A DNA stretch of 64,000 bases, from the NCBI RefSeq assembly GCF_031127815.1, contig NZ_JARXHY010000021.1, positions 1 to 64,000 of the forward strand, written 5' to 3'. Source of the stretch: Pelagicoccus sp. SDUM812003. Lineage in GTDB: Bacteria > Verrucomicrobiota > Verrucomicrobiia > Opitutales > Opitutaceae. Shown piece after piece: positions 20,984 through 54,474 of the stretch (position 1 is its first letter; the number at the start of each line of letters is the position of its first letter). Made by a program: the position numbers and the translations under genes. Below the pieces are notes generated by a model, which was given only the letters and a program-made list of their open reading frames with translations, did no database searches and was not told the origin of the DNA.

Positions 20984-21805
20984 TTATTTCCAGTTGGAAA
21001 CCAAATAGATCGTGGCCTTGGCGGCGCTTTCGGCGGCGAACGGGCCGTAGGTCAAATAGTCGTCGCTCGGCGTAGGCTGAGCTTGGTTGCTTCCGGAGCG
21101 CACCACCAGAAACGGCACGCCGAAATGCCCGCAGACCAGGGCGAAGGTAGCGGACTCCATCTCCATCAGATCCACGTCGAGCGTCCTGAGTTCGCTGATA
21201 CGTCGAGCGTTCACCCCAAAAAAGTCGCCAGAGGTCACCACCCCGCTTCGAATGGACACCGGATAGGTTTCGCCATCGACCGTCACGGAATGCGGCTCGT
21301 ATTCGGATATCAAGGACATAGCCTTTCGGTGCATCACGGCGGGGATGGAGAAATCGTTGGCCAGCAAGGGTGCGCGGTTCGGCACGGAAGGCGGCTGCAG
21401 TCCGGCCATGGTGATGCCGTCGTCGCCGAGGCTACCGTAGTCATGCAGAAAGACGCGAGCGGGCAGGATGACATCCCCGGTACGCAGTCCGGCGTCGATG
21501 CGGGCCGCCGTACCTGTCATGAACGCAGCATCCGGTTCGAATTCCTTGAGAAAAACGGCTGTCACCATCGCGGTATAGCTCTTGCCCACGCCAGTCAGCG
21601 ACACCACGACTTCGTTTTCCCCTAGCCGCCCTCTCGTATACGCCAAGCCACTACATTCGCCCTCCACCGGATCCTTGAGGGCCGCCACGATCGGTTTCGT
21701 CTCTTGCGGCACCGCGCCGAGAATCAGGTAGAGCGGGTTTTCGGAACGGGCTTGGCTCGGAAAAACCAGGCACAGCAGGGCGACAGCGGAGAGAAACGAT
21801 TTCAT
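20984..21805 (-). CDS. Secreted nucleosidase/phosphorylase of PNP-UDP superfamily
   Basis: A 273-residue protein of the PNP/UDP phosphorylase and MTA/SAH nucleosidase superfamily with a cleavable signal peptide (FLSAVALLCLVFPSQARS), so it acts in the periplasm. Family landmarks are the N-terminal strand ILGAVPQE, GVGKSYTAM, MTGTAARIDAGLRTGDVIL and the purine/ribose-binding MEMESA with Glu217. Where MTA/SAH nucleosidases have an aspartate (ISD.A), this protein has Asn240 in SGSNQA. In the superfamily an asparagine there goes with 6-oxopurines, so guanosine, inosine or xanthosine are the better guesses. I use ATG 21805; the longer frame starts at GTG 21844 and would spoil the signal peptide. 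It is the first gene of the trio with the permease and LOG protein. Confidence 0.87.
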   Translation of the reverse strand: MKSFLSAVALLCLVFPSQARSENPLYLILGAVPQETKPIVAALKDPVEGECSGLAYTRGRLGENEVVVSLTGVGKSYTAMVTAVFLKEFEPDAAFMTGTAARIDAGLRTGDVILPARVFLHDYGSLGDDGITMAGLQPPSVPNRAPLLANDFSIPAVMHRKAMSLISEYEPHSVTVDGETYPVSIRSGVVTSGDFFGVNARRISELRTLDVDLMEMESATFALVCGHFGVPFLVVRSGSNQAQPTPSDDYLTYGPFAAESAAKATIYLVSNWK

Positions 21806-44407: not shown

Positions 44408-46210
44408 CTACCGCTCGAAAAGGGGCACGATCTCCATTTCCGGGACCAGCACCAACCCCTTGTCGGTCAGTCGGATCTCCGGAATGACCGATAGCGGCAG
44501 CAGATTGAAGCCCATGTATGGCAGCGTACAGCCCATCTCGCGCCAGACTTTCTTCAGCTCGCTGGATTCCTCGGCCACCTCCGTGGCCCGCTTGTCCGAG
44601 AGCAGTCCTGCAATGGGGAGAGCCACTGACGCGATGACCTGGCCGTCCCTCGCCACCACGACTCCGCCTCGCAGCTCCTTGATGGTCTTGGCCACCAGCT
44701 GCATGTCCGCCTCGTTGGCGCCCGCGATCACGATGTTGTGGGCGTCGTGACCGACGCTGCTGCCGACCGCGCCGCCCTTGAGACCGAAATTCTGCAAGAA
44801 TCCGTAGCCGATTTCGCCCGTCTTCCCGTAGCGTTCCACCACTGTGAGGTAGCAAAGGTCGTTGTCGCTGAGAAACGTGTCCCAGCTGACCGCGGGATCG
44901 AATGCGACGGACTTTCGCAAGGTCACGATCCCCGGGAGCTCCGCCCGAATCAGGTTCACCATTCTGGCGTCAGCAGGCACCTCAGGCAACAAGGAAAGCT
45001 CGTCGCTGTAGTTGATCGTCTCGTAAGCGGGTTTTGGATACACGTAGCGATGATCGCTCAATTGTTCATCCAGGAGCGAGGTGACCTTGCCTGCTTCCAC
45101 CATCAGCGATCCGCCGTACCAGGTGTTCTGCACCTCATAGTCGTCGTTCAACAAAACGATGTCCGCCCGGCGCCCGTGACCGAGCGCTCCAAAGTCCCCA
45201 TCCTTGGCGTAGCGCGTGGCGGGATGCAAAGAGCCTGCGCTCCAAGCCTGAGCTGGGCTGAGACCCGCGACCATTGCCTGACGGGTCACCCAATCGAGCC
45301 CGAATTCGAAGAGATCGTCCGCGTCGCGATCGTCCGTGCAGACGCAGACCCGCTTGTGCGACGCGCCGAGCTCCGTCACTGCCTTGATCGCTTCAGGCAG
45401 GCTATGCCACGGCGTGGTAGGCGGACCTCCACGCAAAAAGACCCAGATGCCGGCCTCCAGAAAATCGTCGGCGATGTCCCGATCGATGGCCTCATGGGTA
45501 TCGGTCACGCCGCTGGCCGCGTAGGCGGAAACGAACTCGCGCCCGTAGATGTGACCGCAGACCGGCTTGCCTCGCTTGAGGGCCTCGGCGATGATGCCGT
45601 GCGAGCGGGGATCCCCCATGCACACCGGCACGAAGTCCATCTTTTCTCCTAAAGCCACGATCTCCGGCCACTTGTCAAACAGCTGCCCTGCCTTATCCGG
45701 CGTCAAATCGCCACCGCAGGTTTCCATGGCGGCATTGGTCGCAGGTATGGTAGAAGGCAAGGTCAGGAAAATGTTGAGCGGCGCCTGTCGGGCATCCTCC
45801 AGCATCCACTCGATGCCGGCGACGTCGCTGACGTTTCCGATCTCATGACTGTCGCAAAAGATAGTGGTGGTACCATTGAGCAAGGCCCCTTCGGCATAGG
45901 CGCAAGCGGTCATCATGCTGCTCTCGATATGAATGTGCGGATCGACGAGTCCTGGGGCGATGATCCCGCCGCCGGCATCGTAGGTTTTGACGCCTGAAAA
46001 ACGGCATGCGCCAGCGGGTGCGACCGCGGCGATGCGCCCTTCCTTTATCCAGATTTCCTTCTCTTCCCGTATCCTCTCAGTGTATACGGATAGTACGCGG
46101 CCGCCCTTGATGACGAGGTCGGGAGCGGCTCGGCCGGAGGCGACATCAGCCAGGGAGCGCGTGACGGCGTGCAGGGGGGCGACGGAGAATCGTGTCAGGG
46201 GAGAAAGCAT
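44408..46210 (-). CDS. ade: Adenine deaminase
   Basis: A 600-residue adenine deaminase, which turns adenine into hypoxanthine and ammonia. It is of the two-metal amidohydrolase type: [57 protein letters not shown] and the C-terminal domain with [21 protein letters not shown]. Length and motif order are normal. The product hypoxanthine is a substrate for the xanthine dehydrogenase encoded at 24256-27970. The gene stands alone, 129 bases downstream of the exported adenosine deaminase gene on the same strand, so read-through from that operon is possible. Confidence 0.96.
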
Positions 46211-46340: not shown

Positions 46341-47891
46341 TCAAAGCGAGAGGCCGAGGTTTTTAGTACCGTAGTCATAGGTAATGGCGTTCGCCTCGTT
46401 CGCCACCGTTTTCCAGCCTCGCTGCAAGCAATTCTCCGCGAAGCGCTCAAGGTCCGCTTCGTAGTCCGCCAGCAGCTGGGCCTTTTCATCGTCGGCTAAG
46501 AAACTGTAGGACAGGCTGTTGCGGCCGAGCGAAACCATTTCCGACCAGGAAAGATTGAAGCGGGTGACCGCTACGAAATACTCGTCGGTCATGTTGGAGT
46601 GCCACATGCCGCGATCGTCGGTATTGAGACAGACCGGAATCCCCTGTCGCAGATAAATGGGAAAGGGATGCTGGTCCAAGTCCGGCACGTAGCCCAGCAG
46701 CTCGTTGCTGATGAGGTTGATCTCGATGAGAAACGCGCCGCAGCGCATGAGCTGCATGGTCGGCTCGTCCCGATAGAGGTTGATGCCGTGACCGATGCGG
46801 GTGGCTCCAAGTCGCAGAGTATCGAAAATCTGGGTATCGCGTTTTTCCGCCTCGCCCGCGTGTATCGAAATTCCAATGGCAGGATAGGTCCGCAGCATCT
46901 TGTCGAACACCTCGGTGAAACGAGCCGCGTATCCACGGTTGTCATCCTCGCGACCCGCCATGTTCAAACCGACCCAGAAGTCTCGGTGTTTGTCGATGAA
47001 CGCGTAGTAGTCCTCCACCCTCTGCTCCGCGTTGTCCTGAAACCGGATAACGATGCCCTGAAATCGCACCGTCACCCCGGTCGCTACGGCGTCCGGCTGA
47101 GCGATCCTATCCTTGATGGCTTGATTGGCTTCGTCCGGGGTCAACGCGCGACCTGAGGCAGTGCTCCAGCCCCACGGCCCCGTCTGGATCTCCAGGTAGC
47201 GCACCCCCTCCGCGCCGAAGCGTTTCATGTTTTCCACCAGCACCTCGGTCATCACCTCGATGCTGCCGAGCAAGTCGCTGATACGCGGCCAGATGTATTC
47301 GAAGAATTCCGTGCGACCCTCGTGTTCTCGATCCAATACGACGGATGAGAGCCATTCCCCCTTTTCCTCCTCGCTCAGATCCGACAACGCTTTGAAGTCC
47401 GCCTTTTCGCTTGGAGCGAGCGTTTGATAGTTGAGTTCGCTGACTGTGGTCCAGAACGCCACGTCGCGCGAGTCGCGGTGAAAATTCGACTCGGACTGGA
47501 AGTATCCGCTTATTCGATACCTCGTGTAAAACTCCTGTCCGCCATTTCGACTTTTGTCAGTCGCGACCTCCCACCAGGTTTCCGGGAGCACCCCGCCGCC
47601 GAAGTGGTGGTGAATGTCTCCACCTTTGGGAAGCGCGTAGAGAAAGGAGTACATCTCCTCCGGCGAGGCTTCGGCCTTCACGGTCTCGAACAAACGGCCC
47701 ATGGCGGCGCGAGCGGGCTTGGGAGCGAGACTTGCGCTGCTATGCATGGTCCGACCTTCTATAGCCGCCGCAGGATGCGATGGCTTGGCATGGCCAGCCT
47801 GGCCAGCCAGTCCCACAACGCCGCCCGCTAGCAGGCCGGCAGCGAGAAAGTCGCGTCTGGAAAAAGCTTTTTCTGGGTCTTCCGGAATCAT
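46341..47891 (-). CDS. Exported adenosine deaminase-like protein (Tat signal)
   Basis: A 516-residue adenosine deaminase-like enzyme with a twin-arginine signal (SRRDFLAAGLLAGGVVGLAG), so it is folded and cofactor-loaded before export. Metal and catalytic motifs are present: GDIHHHFGG, SIHAGEA (histidine and catalytic glutamate), RIGHGINLY, and LNTDDRGMW. It is longer than cytoplasmic Add and resembles the ADGF/CECR1-like secreted deaminases in layout. The frame is open to 48203, but ATG 47891 overlaps the stop of the upstream permease gene and gives the signal. It should make inosine outside the cytoplasm. Other substrates such as N6-methyladenine compounds cannot be excluded. Confidence 0.9.
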   Translation of the reverse strand: MIPEDPEKAFSRRDFLAAGLLAGGVVGLAGQAGHAKPSHPAAAIEGRTMHSSASLAPKPARAAMGRLFETVKAEASPEEMYSFLYALPKGGDIHHHFGGGVLPETWWEVATDKSRNGGQEFYTRYRISGYFQSESNFHRDSRDVAFWTTVSELNYQTLAPSEKADFKALSDLSEEEKGEWLSSVVLDREHEGRTEFFEYIWPRISDLLGSIEVMTEVLVENMKRFGAEGVRYLEIQTGPWGWSTASGRALTPDEANQAIKDRIAQPDAVATGVTVRFQGIVIRFQDNAEQRVEDYYAFIDKHRDFWVGLNMAGREDDNRGYAARFTEVFDKMLRTYPAIGISIHAGEAEKRDTQIFDTLRLGATRIGHGINLYRDEPTMQLMRCGAFLIEINLISNELLGYVPDLDQHPFPIYLRQGIPVCLNTDDRGMWHSNMTDEYFVAVTRFNLSWSEMVSLGRNSLSYSFLADDEKAQLLADYEADLERFAENCLQRGWKTVANEANAITYDYGTKNLGLSL

Positions 47892-49201
47892 TTGAAAGCG
47901 TAGTAGATGATGAATACCAGAGTGATGATGTGGCTGAGCAAGGGCACCGACCTGGCTCGACCGGAGAGCAGCATGATCACGGTGAAAAGCGTCAGACCGA
48001 GTCCGATGCCTTCGGTGATGCTGAAGGTCAGCGGGATCATGAGCATGGTGATGAAAGCTGGAGCAACCTCGCCGAGATCGTCGAAGTTCAGTTCCTTCAG
48101 GCCCTGCGCCATAAAGATGCCCACCATGACCAGAGCAGGCGCGGTGGCGGCGGCGGGCACGACCAAAATGATCGGCGTGAGAAAGAGAGCGATCAGGAAA
48201 CAAATCCCGGTGGTGACCGAAGTGAGCCCAGTGCGCCCTCCCGATTCGATGCCCGCCGCGGACTCGATGTAGGAGGTGGTGGTCGATGTGCCGAGCAAAG
48301 CCCCGGTGATGGTGGCGATGGAGTCAGCGGTGAGGGCCCGCCCCATCTTGGGCATGCTGCCGTCGGCGTTTACCAGTTTCGCCCGGCGCGAGAGCCCTAC
48401 CAGAGTCCCGATGCTGTCGAACAAATCGAGGATCAAGAGCGTTAGCAGCACGTCGGCAATCTCCGTGAAGTGGGTGAGCGGATACAGCAGATCCAGTTTG
48501 AAAAACGTTTCCCCGATCCCGCTGGGCAGAGAGAAGAGACCGTCAGGAACCGTCGTGATCGCTTCTCCGTTTATGGTGATAAACAGCCCCACGAGCGTCA
48601 CCGAAAGGATGGTGATCAGCAAGGCGCCGGCCACGCGCTTGAGCGTGAGAAAGGTCATCAGGGCCACCCCTCCCAGCACCAGCAAGGACACGGGAGACTT
48701 CAAATCGCCGATGGTGACCAGCGTGGCGTCGTTCCCCACCACGATTCCCACGCTCTTCAGACCGAGGAACGCGATGAAGAAACCGATGCCGCATTGGATG
48801 CCGACCTTGATGCCATTCGGCAGGGCTTCGGCCAGGCGTTTCCGAAGACCGGTCACGGAGAGCAGCAGGAAAAGAACCCCGTTCCAAAAGGTCAAAGAGA
48901 GAGCGGTCTGCCAGCTCAAGCCCGCCCCGATGCAGATGACGAACGCGAAGTAGCTGTTGGTTCCCATGCCGGGCGCCTGGGCGATGGGAAAGTTGGTGAG
49001 AGCCGCCATGAGGAAGCAGCCAATCGCCGCCGCCAGAGCCGTCACTGTGATCAAGGCAGGCACCGGCATGCCTGCATTGCTCAAAATCGCCGGGTTCACG
49101 GCAAGGATGTAGGCCATGGCCGCGAAGGTGGTAAGCCCCGCAAGCGCCTCGGACTTAACCGTTACTCCGTTTTCTTTCAGTTTAAAACAGCGATCGAGCA
49201 T
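47888..49201 (-). CDS. Guanine/hypoxanthine/adenine permease (AzgA/PbuG)
   Basis: A 437-residue NCS2 permease of the AzgA/PbuG branch with 12-14 helices. It begins LDRCFKLKENGVTVKSEALA, then LTTFAAMAYILAVNPAILS and GMGTNSYFAF; later come LLILDLFDSIGTLVGL and STTTSYIESAAGIESGGRTG, all standard. This branch imports adenine, guanine and hypoxanthine with protons. I start it at ATG 49201; the extension to 49294 is not typical. The stop overlaps the start of the exported adenosine deaminase, so uptake and extracellular deamination are expressed together. It is divergent from the tandem NUP gene. Confidence 0.94.
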   Translation of the reverse strand: MLDRCFKLKENGVTVKSEALAGLTTFAAMAYILAVNPAILSNAGMPVPALITVTALAAAIGCFLMAALTNFPIAQAPGMGTNSYFAFVICIGAGLSWQTALSLTFWNGVLFLLLSVTGLRKRLAEALPNGIKVGIQCGIGFFIAFLGLKSVGIVVGNDATLVTIGDLKSPVSLLVLGGVALMTFLTLKRVAGALLITILSVTLVGLFITINGEAITTVPDGLFSLPSGIGETFFKLDLLYPLTHFTEIADVLLTLLILDLFDSIGTLVGLSRRAKLVNADGSMPKMGRALTADSIATITGALLGTSTTTSYIESAAGIESGGRTGLTSVTTGICFLIALFLTPIILVVPAAATAPALVMVGIFMAQGLKELNFDDLGEVAPAFITMLMIPLTFSITEGIGLGLTLFTVIMLLSGRARSVPLLSHIITLVFIIYYAFK

Positions 49202-49373
49202 GAGGGGCCGCCTAGCAGCTTCGATGCCGAGCTTCAACCGTTTGCTCAAAATAGCGCAGCGAACGGCTCCCTGCGCCCATCGCCTCGCCACCATGGACTG
49301 ATTTTATCCAGCGTCAGGCAGCAAGCCTGCCTCCATGCCACTCCATGGCGCAAAACCTGCCTGTCGCCTCGCC

Positions 49374-51440
49374 ATGCTTGATCCATTCGCTCGACGTCTC
49401 TTCGCTATCGCAGCTCTCATGGCGAGTCCGCTCGCCTCTTCCACCGCTCACGCGGAAACTGCCCCTGCGCCGATCAAGGTCTGCGTGCTGGCAATGTTCG
49501 AGATGGGCGAGGTCACCGGCGATCGCCCCGGAGAGCTGCAGTTCTGGGTAGAGCGCGAACCGCTGGAAAACATCTACCCTTTCCCCATGGGACAAACGCC
49601 CCTGCGGGTCAGCGACGACGGCCTAATGGTAGCCCTCACCGGAGGAGGCGTCACCCACGCTGCGACCACCATCACGGCCCTCGGCATGGATCCACGCTTC
49701 GATTTTTCGAATACCTACTGGATCGTGGCCGGCATTGCCGGGGCCGACCCCACCGACGCCTCTCTCGGCAGCGCCGCTTGGGCGAAGTGGGTCGTCGACG
49801 GCGATCTTCTCTATGAGATCGACTCCAGCGAAATCCCGGAGGACTGGCCCTATGGGCTCATCCCTCTCGGCGGCTACGAGCCCAACCAGCTCGACACCGG
49901 TTGGACCGTCGACAATATCGCCTTCAAACTCAACGAGGGGCTCGTGAATTGGGCGTATTCGCTCACCAAGGACATGGAGCTGATGGAGACGCCCGCCATG
50001 AAGGAGTTCCGAGCCCAGTTCGAAGGCTATCCCAACGCGATGCTGCCTCCTCGCGTGATGATGGGCGACGCCCTCAGCTCTTCCACCTACTTCCACGGCG
50101 AGGTGCTCAACCAATGGGCAAACGACTGGATGAAACTCCACACAGGCGGCGAAGCGAACTTCGTCATGACCAATATGGAGGACAGCGGCACCCTGACCGC
50201 TTTGCGAAGCCTCTCCGACGCTGGCTACGTGGACTACGACCGTATCCTCGTTTTGCGTACCGCAAGCAACTTCTCCATGCAGCCGCCCGGCAAACCAGCC
50301 ACCTGGAGCGCCACCGCTCCCTATCCCGACAATGGTCGGCCAGCTCTCGAATCCGCCTACCAAGTCGGCAGCGCCGTGGCCCATGAGCTCATCGCCAATT
50401 GGGATCAATACGAAAACCGCATTCCACGTGCCGAAGCGCCCAAGGAGAAGGTGAAAGCGGTGGTGGTGACCATGTTCGAGATCGGAGACGATACCGGCGA
50501 CCGGCCCGCGGAGTTTCAAAACTGGGTGGAGCGTTTCCCGCTATCCGAAAGGATCTCCTTTCCTCACGGGTATCGCGATCTTCGATACAATCGAGAGAGC
50601 GGGGTGCTCGGCATCGTGACCGGCATCGGCACATTTCGCTCCGCCGCTTCCATCATGGCCCTGGGCATGGACGAGCGCTTCGACCTAAGCGAGGCCTACT
50701 GGCTGGTGGCCGGCATCGCAGGCGTGGATCCGAACGACATGTCCCTCGGCTCCGCGGCCTGGGCGGAATGGCTCATCGATGGCGATCTCTCCCATGAGAT
50801 CGATCCGCGCGAAATGCCCGATGAGTGGGAATTTGGATACACGCCCCTTCGCTCCGCCGAGTACCCTTGGGGACCGATTCCTGAGAATGACGAGGGCGTT
50901 CGCTACCGACTGAAGCCCGAACTGGTCGAATGGGCGTATCAGCTCACCAAAGACATTCCCATCGCCGACACCGACGCCATGAAGGAGATGCGCGCAAAGT
51001 ACAAAGGATACCCGAATGCTCAAAAACCGCCATCGGTGCTGAAAGGCGATCAGCTGGCCGCCATGACCTTCTGGCACGGCAAGCTCATGAACGATTGGGC
51101 CAACGAATGGGTCGACTACTGGACCGAAGGCCAAGGAAACTTCGTCACCTCAGCCATGGAGGAAACCGGCACCATGCAGTCGCTCTCCTTTCTCGCCAAC
51201 GCCGGAAAAGTGGACCTGCAGCGCGTCCTGGTTTTGCGGACCGCCAGCAATTTCTCCATGCAGCCTCCAGGCGTCACCGCAGCTGAAAACCTGAGCGGCG
51301 AAAAGAAAGGCGGGTACTCCGCGTTCATCCCCTCCCTCGAAGCCGCCTACGATGTGGGCAGCGCCGTGATCCGCGAGCTGGTGGAAAACTGGGAGACCTA
51401 CCGAACCACGATCCCCCAGTCCGAATCGCCCCAGAGCTGA
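49374..51440 (+). CDS. Secreted protein with two tandem NUP domains
   Basis: A 688-residue protein made of two complete copies of the purine nucleoside permease (NUP) domain in one chain, behind a signal peptide (LFAIAALMASPLASSTAHA). The copies (about 33-345 and 360-680) repeat the same motifs: GDRPGELQFWVER and GDRPAEFQNWVER, VAGIAGADPTD and VAGIAGVDPND, LGSAAWAKW and LGSAAWAEW, and VLRTASNFSMQPPG twice. NUP proteins, named from a Candida transporter, are single-domain and related to nucleoside phosphorylases, with no obvious membrane helices here. ATG 49374 gives the better signal; ATG 49335 is possible. Divergent from AzgA and the exported deaminase. It may bind or cleave nucleosides in the periplasm. 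Confidence 0.92.
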   Translation: MLDPFARRLFAIAALMASPLASSTAHAETAPAPIKVCVLAMFEMGEVTGDRPGELQFWVEREPLENIYPFPMGQTPLRVSDDGLMVALTGGGVTHAATTITALGMDPRFDFSNTYWIVAGIAGADPTDASLGSAAWAKWVVDGDLLYEIDSSEIPEDWPYGLIPLGGYEPNQLDTGWTVDNIAFKLNEGLVNWAYSLTKDMELMETPAMKEFRAQFEGYPNAMLPPRVMMGDALSSSTYFHGEVLNQWANDWMKLHTGGEANFVMTNMEDSGTLTALRSLSDAGYVDYDRILVLRTASNFSMQPPGKPATWSATAPYPDNGRPALESAYQVGSAVAHELIANWDQYENRIPRAEAPKEKVKAVVVTMFEIGDDTGDRPAEFQNWVERFPLSERISFPHGYRDLRYNRESGVLGIVTGIGTFRSAASIMALGMDERFDLSEAYWLVAGIAGVDPNDMSLGSAAWAEWLIDGDLSHEIDPREMPDEWEFGYTPLRSAEYPWGPIPENDEGVRYRLKPELVEWAYQLTKDIPIADTDAMKEMRAKYKGYPNAQKPPSVLKGDQLAAMTFWHGKLMNDWANEWVDYWTEGQGNFVTSAMEETGTMQSLSFLANAGKVDLQRVLVLRTASNFSMQPPGVTAAENLSGEKKGGYSAFIPSLEAAYDVGSAVIRELVENWETYRTTIPQSESPQS

Positions 51441-52938: not shown

Positions 52939-54474
52939 ATGCGCCTTTTCCATCTCTTCATCATCTCCGCATGCCTGCTGCCAAGTCGTCTGATATTTGC
53001 CGACGCGACCCTGCTAAACGGTCCCATGCCCGGCGCCAGCAGCATGACGGAAGTGGTTATCTGGACCCAAACCTCCGAACCGGCGTCCGTGCAAATCGAA
53101 TATTGGCAAAAGAACTCCAAGGTGCAAACGGTCCTCAGAAGCCCTCTCTATCAGACCTCGCGAGATCAGGCTTGCGTGGCAAAGGTCTCGCTCACTGAGG
53201 GTCTGGCGCCGGGAGAGCATTACGAATACGCGGTGCTGGTGGACGGCGAGCCGCACGCGCCAGCCTTTCGCGAGGGCTACGAGCTCCAAGGCCCGGTGCC
53301 CATGGAGTTTCAAGTGAAGCCGCGCTGGCGCTTCGTGCCGGAGGGGGAGCTCGCCCATAGCGTATTCGATTTTCGGATAGCGGCGGGCAGCTGCGCCTAC
53401 ATCAACGAGAAAGGCTACGATCGCGAAGGCGGTACCCCCTATGGCGGAGAATACCACATCTTCGAATCCATCTTCGAGAAGGACCCGGACCTCATGCTGT
53501 GGCTCGGCGACTGCATCTACTACCGAGAAAACGATTTCGAGAGCGAGATCGGCATGCAGCGTCGCTGGACCCACGACCGGCAGCTTCCCGAGCTTCAGCC
53601 GCTGCTGGCCAGCGCCCACCACTTCGCCATCTGGGATGACCATGACTACGGACCGAACGACATCGGACGCAGCTTCACGCTCAAAGGAGCCGCGAAGGAC
53701 ACCTTCGATCTCTTCTGGGCCAACCCAAGCTCCGGACTGCCGGAGACGCCTGGCATCTTCACCTTTCTCAACTGGGGCGACGTCAATATCTACTTGCTGG
53801 ACAACCGCACCTACCTCAGCTCCGCCACCTCGCATCCCGAACGCTTCAACAAACCGAAAGCCATGCTGGGCGAGAAGCAGGTCGACTGGCTGATCAACCA
53901 TCTCGTGTGGGCCCAGAGCCAAATGGAAAACGACGGCAAGAGCTACCCAGCTCGATTCAATCTCATCTGCGTAGGCAACCAGGTGCTCAACGAATCGGGC
54001 AATCCTCACGGGTATCGAAATTTCCATGACGAATGGCAGTACCTCATCGATCGCATCGTGGAGGAAGGCATCGACGGAGTCGTCTTCCTCAGCGGCGACG
54101 TGCATTTCAGCGAGGTCAACCGCCTGGTCTACAAGGGCGGCGGCAGGCCGGGGGTGCCGGGCAAGGCCGGCATCAAGGGCGAGGACTACGTCTTCTACGA
54201 GCTGACCTCCTCCTCCCTCACCTCCGGCTCATGGGCAGGACACGAAAACAACCCCGCTCGCTTCGACATCTTCGACGACCCGAAAGTGGACCGCGTGGGG
54301 CAGCGAAACTTCATGACGCTCGACTTCAAGGGTCCGCTCAAGGACCGCCGCATGGAGGTGCGCTACTTCGACTCGGACGGAAATTTGCTCAACCGAAAGA
54401 GAGGCGGACGCCCCGACGAGATCACCGAGGCGTCGATCTTCCGCGCGGCCGATCTGAGGGCCCCAAAACCCTGA
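52939..54474 (+). CDS. Secreted PhoD-like metallophosphatase
   Basis: A 511-residue protein of the alkaline phosphatase D family with a signal peptide (LFIISACLLPSRLIFA). An N-terminal fibronectin-like domain (residues about 20-125) precedes the metallophosphatase domain with FDFRIAAGSCAY, MLWLGDCIYYRE, AIWDDHDYGPND and LSGDVHFSE, which provide the metal ligands. Such enzymes release phosphate from phosphodiesters or phosphomonoesters outside the cell. The open frame reaches back to 52537, but that stretch is antisense to the P450 gene; ATG 52939 gives the signal peptide. Nucleotides or teichoic-like polymers are possible substrates. Confidence 0.93.
   Translation: MRLFHLFIISACLLPSRLIFADATLLNGPMPGASSMTEVVIWTQTSEPASVQIEYWQKNSKVQTVLRSPLYQTSRDQACVAKVSLTEGLAPGEHYEYAVLVDGEPHAPAFREGYELQGPVPMEFQVKPRWRFVPEGELAHSVFDFRIAAGSCAYINEKGYDREGGTPYGGEYHIFESIFEKDPDLMLWLGDCIYYRENDFESEIGMQRRWTHDRQLPELQPLLASAHHFAIWDDHDYGPNDIGRSFTLKGAAKDTFDLFWANPSSGLPETPGIFTFLNWGDVNIYLLDNRTYLSSATSHPERFNKPKAMLGEKQVDWLINHLVWAQSQMENDGKSYPARFNLICVGNQVLNESGNPHGYRNFHDEWQYLIDRIVEEGIDGVVFLSGDVHFSEVNRLVYKGGGRPGVPGKAGIKGEDYVFYELTSSSLTSGSWAGHENNPARFDIFDDPKVDRVGQRNFMTLDFKGPLKDRRMEVRYFDSDGNLLNRKRGGRPDEITEASIFRAADLRAPKP

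Follow-up and report, generated by a model that had tools for sequence, protein, structure and literature searches.

In a window of 64,000 nucleotides of the marine bacterium Pelagicoccus sp. SDUM812003 (positions 1 to 64,000 of contig NZ_JARXHY010000021.1), we identified a gene whose product joins two complete NUP domains in a single chain behind a hydrophobic leader, and we favour, with moderate confidence, the reading of this fused protein as a tandem purine nucleosidase (a hydrolase) that is exported and feeds base import and deamination. Of this reading, we infer catalysis, its hydrolytic course, the substrates, the cellular location and the pairing of the two halves as a pseudo-dimer. 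The case for NUP as a secreted nucleosidase is a more useful point than the fusion, and it is testable: if it is true, a family named after transporters would consist of secreted enzymes, nucleoside cleavage would be placed outside the inner membrane, ahead of base uptake, and results interpreted as uptake, such as the growth of yeast on adenosine, would need another reading.

The open frame of the fused gene (49335-51440, forward strand) is 701 aa long and its better start is the ATG at 49374, from which the protein would begin with the leader MLDPFARRLFAIAALMASPLASSTAHA and continue into the mature chain (Table 1). Hydrophobic leaders also start the homologous fused proteins, and no vestige of another signal peptide was seen between the domains of the fused proteins. 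A domain search for a NUP-NUP architecture found a single Pfam family in the chain, NUP (PF06516), twice: taken alone, the first domain (T1) scored 348.3 bits over positions 2-310 of the 313-position NUP profile and the second (T2) scored 376.5 bits over positions 1-312, so that each half exceeds the cut-off of 27 more than tenfold. The sequence-only reading had proposed two complete NUP domains in one exported protein; both scores agree with this, the leader points to export, and the paired motifs which that reading named are present in both halves. When T1 and T2 were aligned with each other, 160 of 325 columns (49%) were identical and the alignment score was 817; 200 shuffles averaged -73 (s.d. 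20) and reached -8 at most. Identity between the two halves is 63, 70 and 45% at codon positions 1, 2 and 3, which indicates that the halves are old copies. The fused gene is the sole NUP gene found in the window's genome.

Table 1. Features of the fused gene and its neighbours, in window positions; residue numbers here and in the text follow the 701-aa numbering.
Feature	Position	Strand	Remarks
Adenine deaminase	44408..46210	-	Beside 7 of 7 fused loci with enough flank
Adenosine-deaminase/ADGF-like protein	46341..47891	-	Twin-arginine (Tat) leader
NCS2 purine-base permease	47888..49294	-	41% identical to E. coli AdeP, 34% to GhxP
Tandem NUP-NUP protein gene	49374..51440	+	688 aa from ATG 49374
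Putative signal peptide	49374..49454	+	Sec-type, judged by eye; cleavage probably after AHA
First NUP domain (T1)	49470..50429	+	Active-site counterparts Glu67, Met281, Glu282, Arg308, Ser311, Asn312
Short linker, APKEK region	50430..50453	+	About 8-10 residues; T2 is counted from within the linker
Second NUP domain (T2)	50445..51437	+	Active-site counterparts Glu393, Met608, Glu609, Arg635, Ser638, Asn639
Cytochrome P450	51508..52827	-	Adjoins 4 of 8 fused loci
PhoD-like phosphatase	52939..54474	+	Adjoins 6 of 8 fused loci

A frameshift or assembly artefact, which the sequence-only reading had named as a possible refutation, is ruled out because the two-domain frame recurs in eight genomes. 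These belong to three genus groups of one family and comprise the window's genome, G301, G374 (Verrucomicrobiae bacterium DG1235), G407 (Pelagicoccus sp. SDUM812002), G291 (Puniceicoccaceae bacterium K14), G223, G400 (MAG EAC85) and G455 (MAG UBA7389). Within the genus, four of the eight genomes have NUP and all four have the fused form; the other four (G334, G355, G390 and G421) gave no NUP match, and the module is therefore dispensable. Wider samples, which overlap and represent draws rather than a census, contained NUP in 77 of 200 genomes of the family, in 46 of 273 of the order (two of them fused, both among the eight) and in 19 of 288 of the phylum (one below the cut-off; the same two fused). 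In a sample of 398 Pseudomonadota genomes, NUP was present in 26 (one below the cut-off) and none had two domains per frame. Matches were also obtained in 47 plasmid records, and the 15 listed were all of single-domain match length, even though the search tool joins such matches as if they spanned most of the query. G308, G461, G438 and G303 have long open frames that were considered as further fusions and rejected, since Pfam finds in each a single NUP domain and nothing else. In the samples searched, no fused form was seen outside the eight genomes and a single-domain NUP is the usual architecture elsewhere. The earlier statement that known NUP proteins have one domain thus holds as the rule, and the two-domain form is not widespread (8 of the 77 NUP-bearing family genomes). 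Both halves are under purifying selection: in the three pairs with unsaturated dS, dN was 0.009-0.045 and dS 0.07-1.27, with dN/dS ratios of 0.09 and 0.26 in the closest pair and of about 0.03-0.04 in the other two. Overall, the fusion is real and conserved but phylogenetically narrow, and its novelty in itself is modest.

Single-domain NUP proteins (PF06516) resemble the fused protein in their leader, in having no membrane helix and, at part of their loci, in their neighbour genes; the fused protein differs in having two domains per chain, drawn from two paralogue groups. The sequence-only reading had taken the chain to repeat one domain, and on this point the trees contradict it. In a tree of 64 domains, inferred in careful mode, the eight first halves form one clade and the eight second halves another (support 100/99 each), and the first halves cluster with single-domain proteins of G271, of MAG M30B9 and of a gammaproteobacterial MAG (100/99), apart from the second halves. 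Constraining all halves together cost 108 log-likelihood units (p-AU 4.9e-78), and a simple internal duplication is thereby rejected. The T1/T2 split persists in a larger tree of 102 domains, inferred in quick mode only, in which single-domain relatives of both the T1 and the T2 side are found in other families of the order. Judged from their sequences, the halves are members of two old paralogue groups that were later fused and are not the outcome of a recent internal duplication. In relatives of the same order, separate NUP genes form one-strand rows: two genes in G888 (locus L146), four in G898 (L144) and three in G909 (L145). Each row starts with T1-side genes and ends with the T2-side gene, which is the order in the fused chain, and every gene of these rows has its own hydrophobic leader (by eye). 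The fused form could have arisen from two adjacent paralogue genes in the order T1-T2 through loss of the intervening stop codon and of the second signal peptide; since the linker is so short and holds no trace of a second leader, fusion would have needed a deletion, beyond the lost stop codon. A rule by which T1-like domains occur only together with T2-like ones was considered as well and fails, as G867 has a single NUP gene that is T1-like.

The structure prediction that the sequence-only reading had suggested yielded an AlphaFold model of the fused protein with a mean pLDDT of 88 and a pTM of 0.60 (a second run with a shallower alignment was worse, at 65 and 0.50), and the model has a soluble alpha/beta fold. 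In Foldseek and VIA-align comparisons of this predicted model, both halves match MTA/SAH nucleosidases (MTAN) with Z of 23-24 at best and an rmsd of about 2.5 over about 225 residues; the MTAN matches are 10-17% identical in sequence and include the exported MTAN of Aeromonas. Hydrolases head both the Foldseek and the VIA lists, and the 50 Foldseek matches listed are all MTAN, futalosine hydrolase or uridine phosphorylase. Compared as profiles, NUP and MTAN/PNP gave a probability of 83 (E 8.8e-6); in three further profile comparisons the probability was no more than 7, 10 and 17. Futalosine hydrolase (MqnB) has a similar fold (Z 23.2) and a weak profile match (TIGR03664; 35.8 bits, E 6.8e-9), but the fused protein falls below the equivalog cut-off of 124.7 and is predicted to be exported, and the genes that neighbour futalosine hydrolase, those of the menaquinone pathway, differ from those beside the fused gene. 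A single-protein search found no solved structure related by sequence, and a profile search for one gave chance-like matches only. No membrane helix was predicted, the maximum of a 19-residue Kyte-Doolittle window beyond the leader being 1.43. This value and the soluble-enzyme fold of the model sustain the earlier view of a protein free of membrane helices and unlikely to be a permease.

We compared the NUP halves with the active site of MTAN, pairing residues by profile and sequence alignment rather than by coordinates and counting them over the 66 NUP domains of one alignment. PDB entry titles name MTAN mutants at two of these positions (Glu12Gln, and Asp197Asn or Asp198Asn with substrate bound). 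Glu12 of MTAN corresponds to Glu67/Glu393 (Glu in 66 of 66 domains), Met173 to Met281/Met608 (Met in 60), Glu174 to Glu282/Glu609 (Glu in 66), Arg193 to Arg308/Arg635 (Arg in 66) and Ser196 to Ser311/Ser638 (Ser in 65). The catalytic acid of MTAN, Asp197, pairs instead with Asn312/Asn639, a column that contains Asn in 62 domains, Asp in three and Ser in one. Some Pseudomonadota NUPs, in which the first loop is short, show no gap against MTAN through Glu12; three Pseudomonadota NUPs (L076, L078 and L080) combine a short first loop with Asp at the usual Asn column, which supports the pairing of Asn312/Asn639 with Asp197. The Asn at this position is the main weakness of the nucleosidase reading, since cleavage cannot proceed with the acid that MTAN uses, and another proton donor, or activity on 6-oxopurines only, must be assumed. 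Trimeric PNP-type enzymes that carry an active-site Asn have a preference for 6-oxopurines. According to the cited part of PMC3434127, this Asn of trimeric PNP stabilises the transition state at N7. The NCS2 neighbour of the fused gene is nearer to the adenine than to the guanine/hypoxanthine symporter, which fits poorly with an enzyme for 6-oxopurines only. As the invariant polar residues are retained in both halves, both are probably active; they may differ in substrates, as the sequence-only reading had suggested.

The same Asn is what commends the view that the halves only bind and do not cleave, nucleosides or bases perhaps being passed on to the permease encoded by the adjoining gene, for MTAN mutants with Asn in place of the acid are present in the PDB, by their titles, with substrate bound. 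We consider this unlikely, because the other catalytic positions are invariant (66 of 66 domains), which goes beyond the need of binding alone, and the NCS2 permease family is not known to require binding proteins. Of the earlier suggestion of a 'binding or cleaving' protein, the second part is favoured by the fold and the catalytic residues, and mere binding is not.

Distinctly unlikely, in our judgement, is an exported phosphorylase of the same fold, in which phosphate would attack in place of water and give ribose 1-phosphate. This had been the proposal of the sequence-only reading, and it is in keeping with a fold that is common to purine and uridine phosphorylases and with the presence of uridine phosphorylase among the structural matches. 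In hexameric PNP (DeoD), which has the superfamily fold, Arg24 contacts the phosphate and Arg87 the ribose, as stated in the cited part of PMC3434127. In our alignments, neither of the E. coli PNP Arg24 and Arg87 columns contains an arginine in NUP, where Gly, Ala, Pro or His and Val, Ile or Thr are found instead (Val or Ile at the Arg87 column in 65 of 66 domains). The absence of these counterparts favours hydrolysis over phosphorolysis, and an invariant NUP counterpart of the water-activating Glu of MTAN and the hydrolases at the head of both structural lists likewise speak against a phosphorylase.

The genes beside the fused gene suit ordinary purine salvage. The fused gene is divergent from the NCS2 permease gene, which is followed by the ADGF-like gene and then by that for adenine deaminase, and all three are present beside seven of seven fused loci with enough flank (in one, the examined stretch ends within the adenine deaminase gene); the eighth contig begins at the fused gene. 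At 48 single-domain loci, most with 1.5 kb of flank, an NCS2 or deaminase-like gene was found at nine, and a deaminase-like gene also adjoins the separate-gene rows of G888, G898 and G909. Because the deaminase-like protein has a Tat leader and the NUP protein a leader of its own, both would be expected to lie outside the inner membrane. The start of the deaminase-like gene overlaps the stop of the permease gene by 4 bases (47888-47891), as in coupled translation. Genes for a P450 and a PhoD-like phosphatase are also near the fused gene, and the phosphatase could supply nucleosides from nucleotides. The neighbourhood bears on a further alternative, namely that the protein is a nucleosidase for 5'-methylthioadenosine, S-adenosylhomocysteine or 5'-deoxyadenosine and not for ordinary nucleosides. 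MTAN is indeed the closest fold, and the NUP halves have it in common with MTAN, including the exported MtaN-2 of Aeromonas, together with the counterparts of Glu12, Met173, Glu174, Arg193 and Ser196. However, the NUP halves differ from MTAN in their low sequence identity, in the Asn for Asp197, in their tandem arrangement and in their size, each domain being about 90 residues longer and having conserved stretches peculiar to NUP, and the deaminase-like protein, purine-base permease and adenine deaminase encoded nearby fit ordinary purines better; we regard this alternative as quite improbable.

The transporter literature can be read in the light of secreted cleavage. We take the Candida albicans NUP to be a member of PF06516, and 7-deaza nucleosides resist cleavage. 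A secreted nucleosidase would also explain what was seen with this protein in yeast: adenine freed outside would be taken up, and 7-deaza nucleosides would stay uncut. In the part of PMC9431476 cited here, the Candida NUP enabled adenine-requiring yeast to grow on adenosine and gave yeast no sensitivity to toyocamycin or analogues, whereas the Candida CNT transporter gave both growth on adenosine and toyocamycin sensitivity; the authors' reason for the absent toyocamycin effect is a narrower selectivity. The Candida NUP is described as a transporter in the cited parts of PMC9431476 and PMC5541157, and tubercidin is a competitive inhibitor of hexameric PNP according to that of PMC3434127. A permease, as the Pfam name of the family has it and as the growth of the NUP-expressing yeast on adenosine might suggest, is hardly credible, given that no membrane helix is predicted, that the model has a soluble-enzyme fold and that toyocamycin was not toxic to yeast with the Candida NUP (PMC9431476, in the part cited), a result for which a nucleosidase is no worse an explanation. 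In the cited sections of other papers, a coastal bacterioplankton survey classes COG5042 with the transporters (PMC2847192), and a listing of thylakoid lumen proteins includes a cyanobacterial 'purine nucleoside permease' marked 'None' (PMC7880944), which we read as its count of membrane helices. In searches of the open-licence literature for NUP nucleosidase, COG5042/PF06516 and exported nucleosidases, no paper that treats NUP as an enzyme was found. 'Permease', as the name of the family, is probably a misnomer.

In the tandem purine nucleosidase that we propose, the protein would be exported across the inner membrane and each half, with its predicted MTAN/futalosine-hydrolase fold, would cleave purine nucleosides at the N-glycosidic bond; Glu67/Glu393 would activate water, and Glu282/Glu609 together with Arg308/Arg635 would hold the ribose. 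The neighbouring NCS2 permease would then import the freed base and adenine deaminase would deaminate adenine inside the cell, and the Tat-exported adenosine-deaminase-like protein would act on the nucleoside in parallel. In MTAN, each subunit contributes residues to the active site of its partner, and the stretch of NUP from SAAWAKW to REIP-DW, which aligns with the contributing part of MTAN, is one of the best conserved in the family and is present in both halves. This conservation suits a pseudo-dimer in cis, and the pTM values of the two AlphaFold runs leave the arrangement of the halves unfixed. What the fusion might gain is a fixed one-to-one pair of halves, perhaps completing each other's active sites in the manner of MTAN dimer subunits. 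More speculatively, and with rather less confidence than in the nucleosidase itself, we suggest that the whole NUP family could be misnamed and consist of secreted MTAN-fold nucleosidases with Asn for the catalytic Asp, and that the fused protein could be a covalent pseudo-heterodimer whose halves complete each other's sites, recording a heteromer still made by separate genes in relatives. The fused protein and the relatives with adjacent genes offer a direct test of a T1/T2 heteromer.

A minor observation concerns another gene of the window, a PNP_UDP_1 gene of the phosphorylase superfamily on the reverse strand (21014-21727; 105 bits), which is MTAN-like and has the motif RSGSN, and so also Asn for MTAN Asp197.
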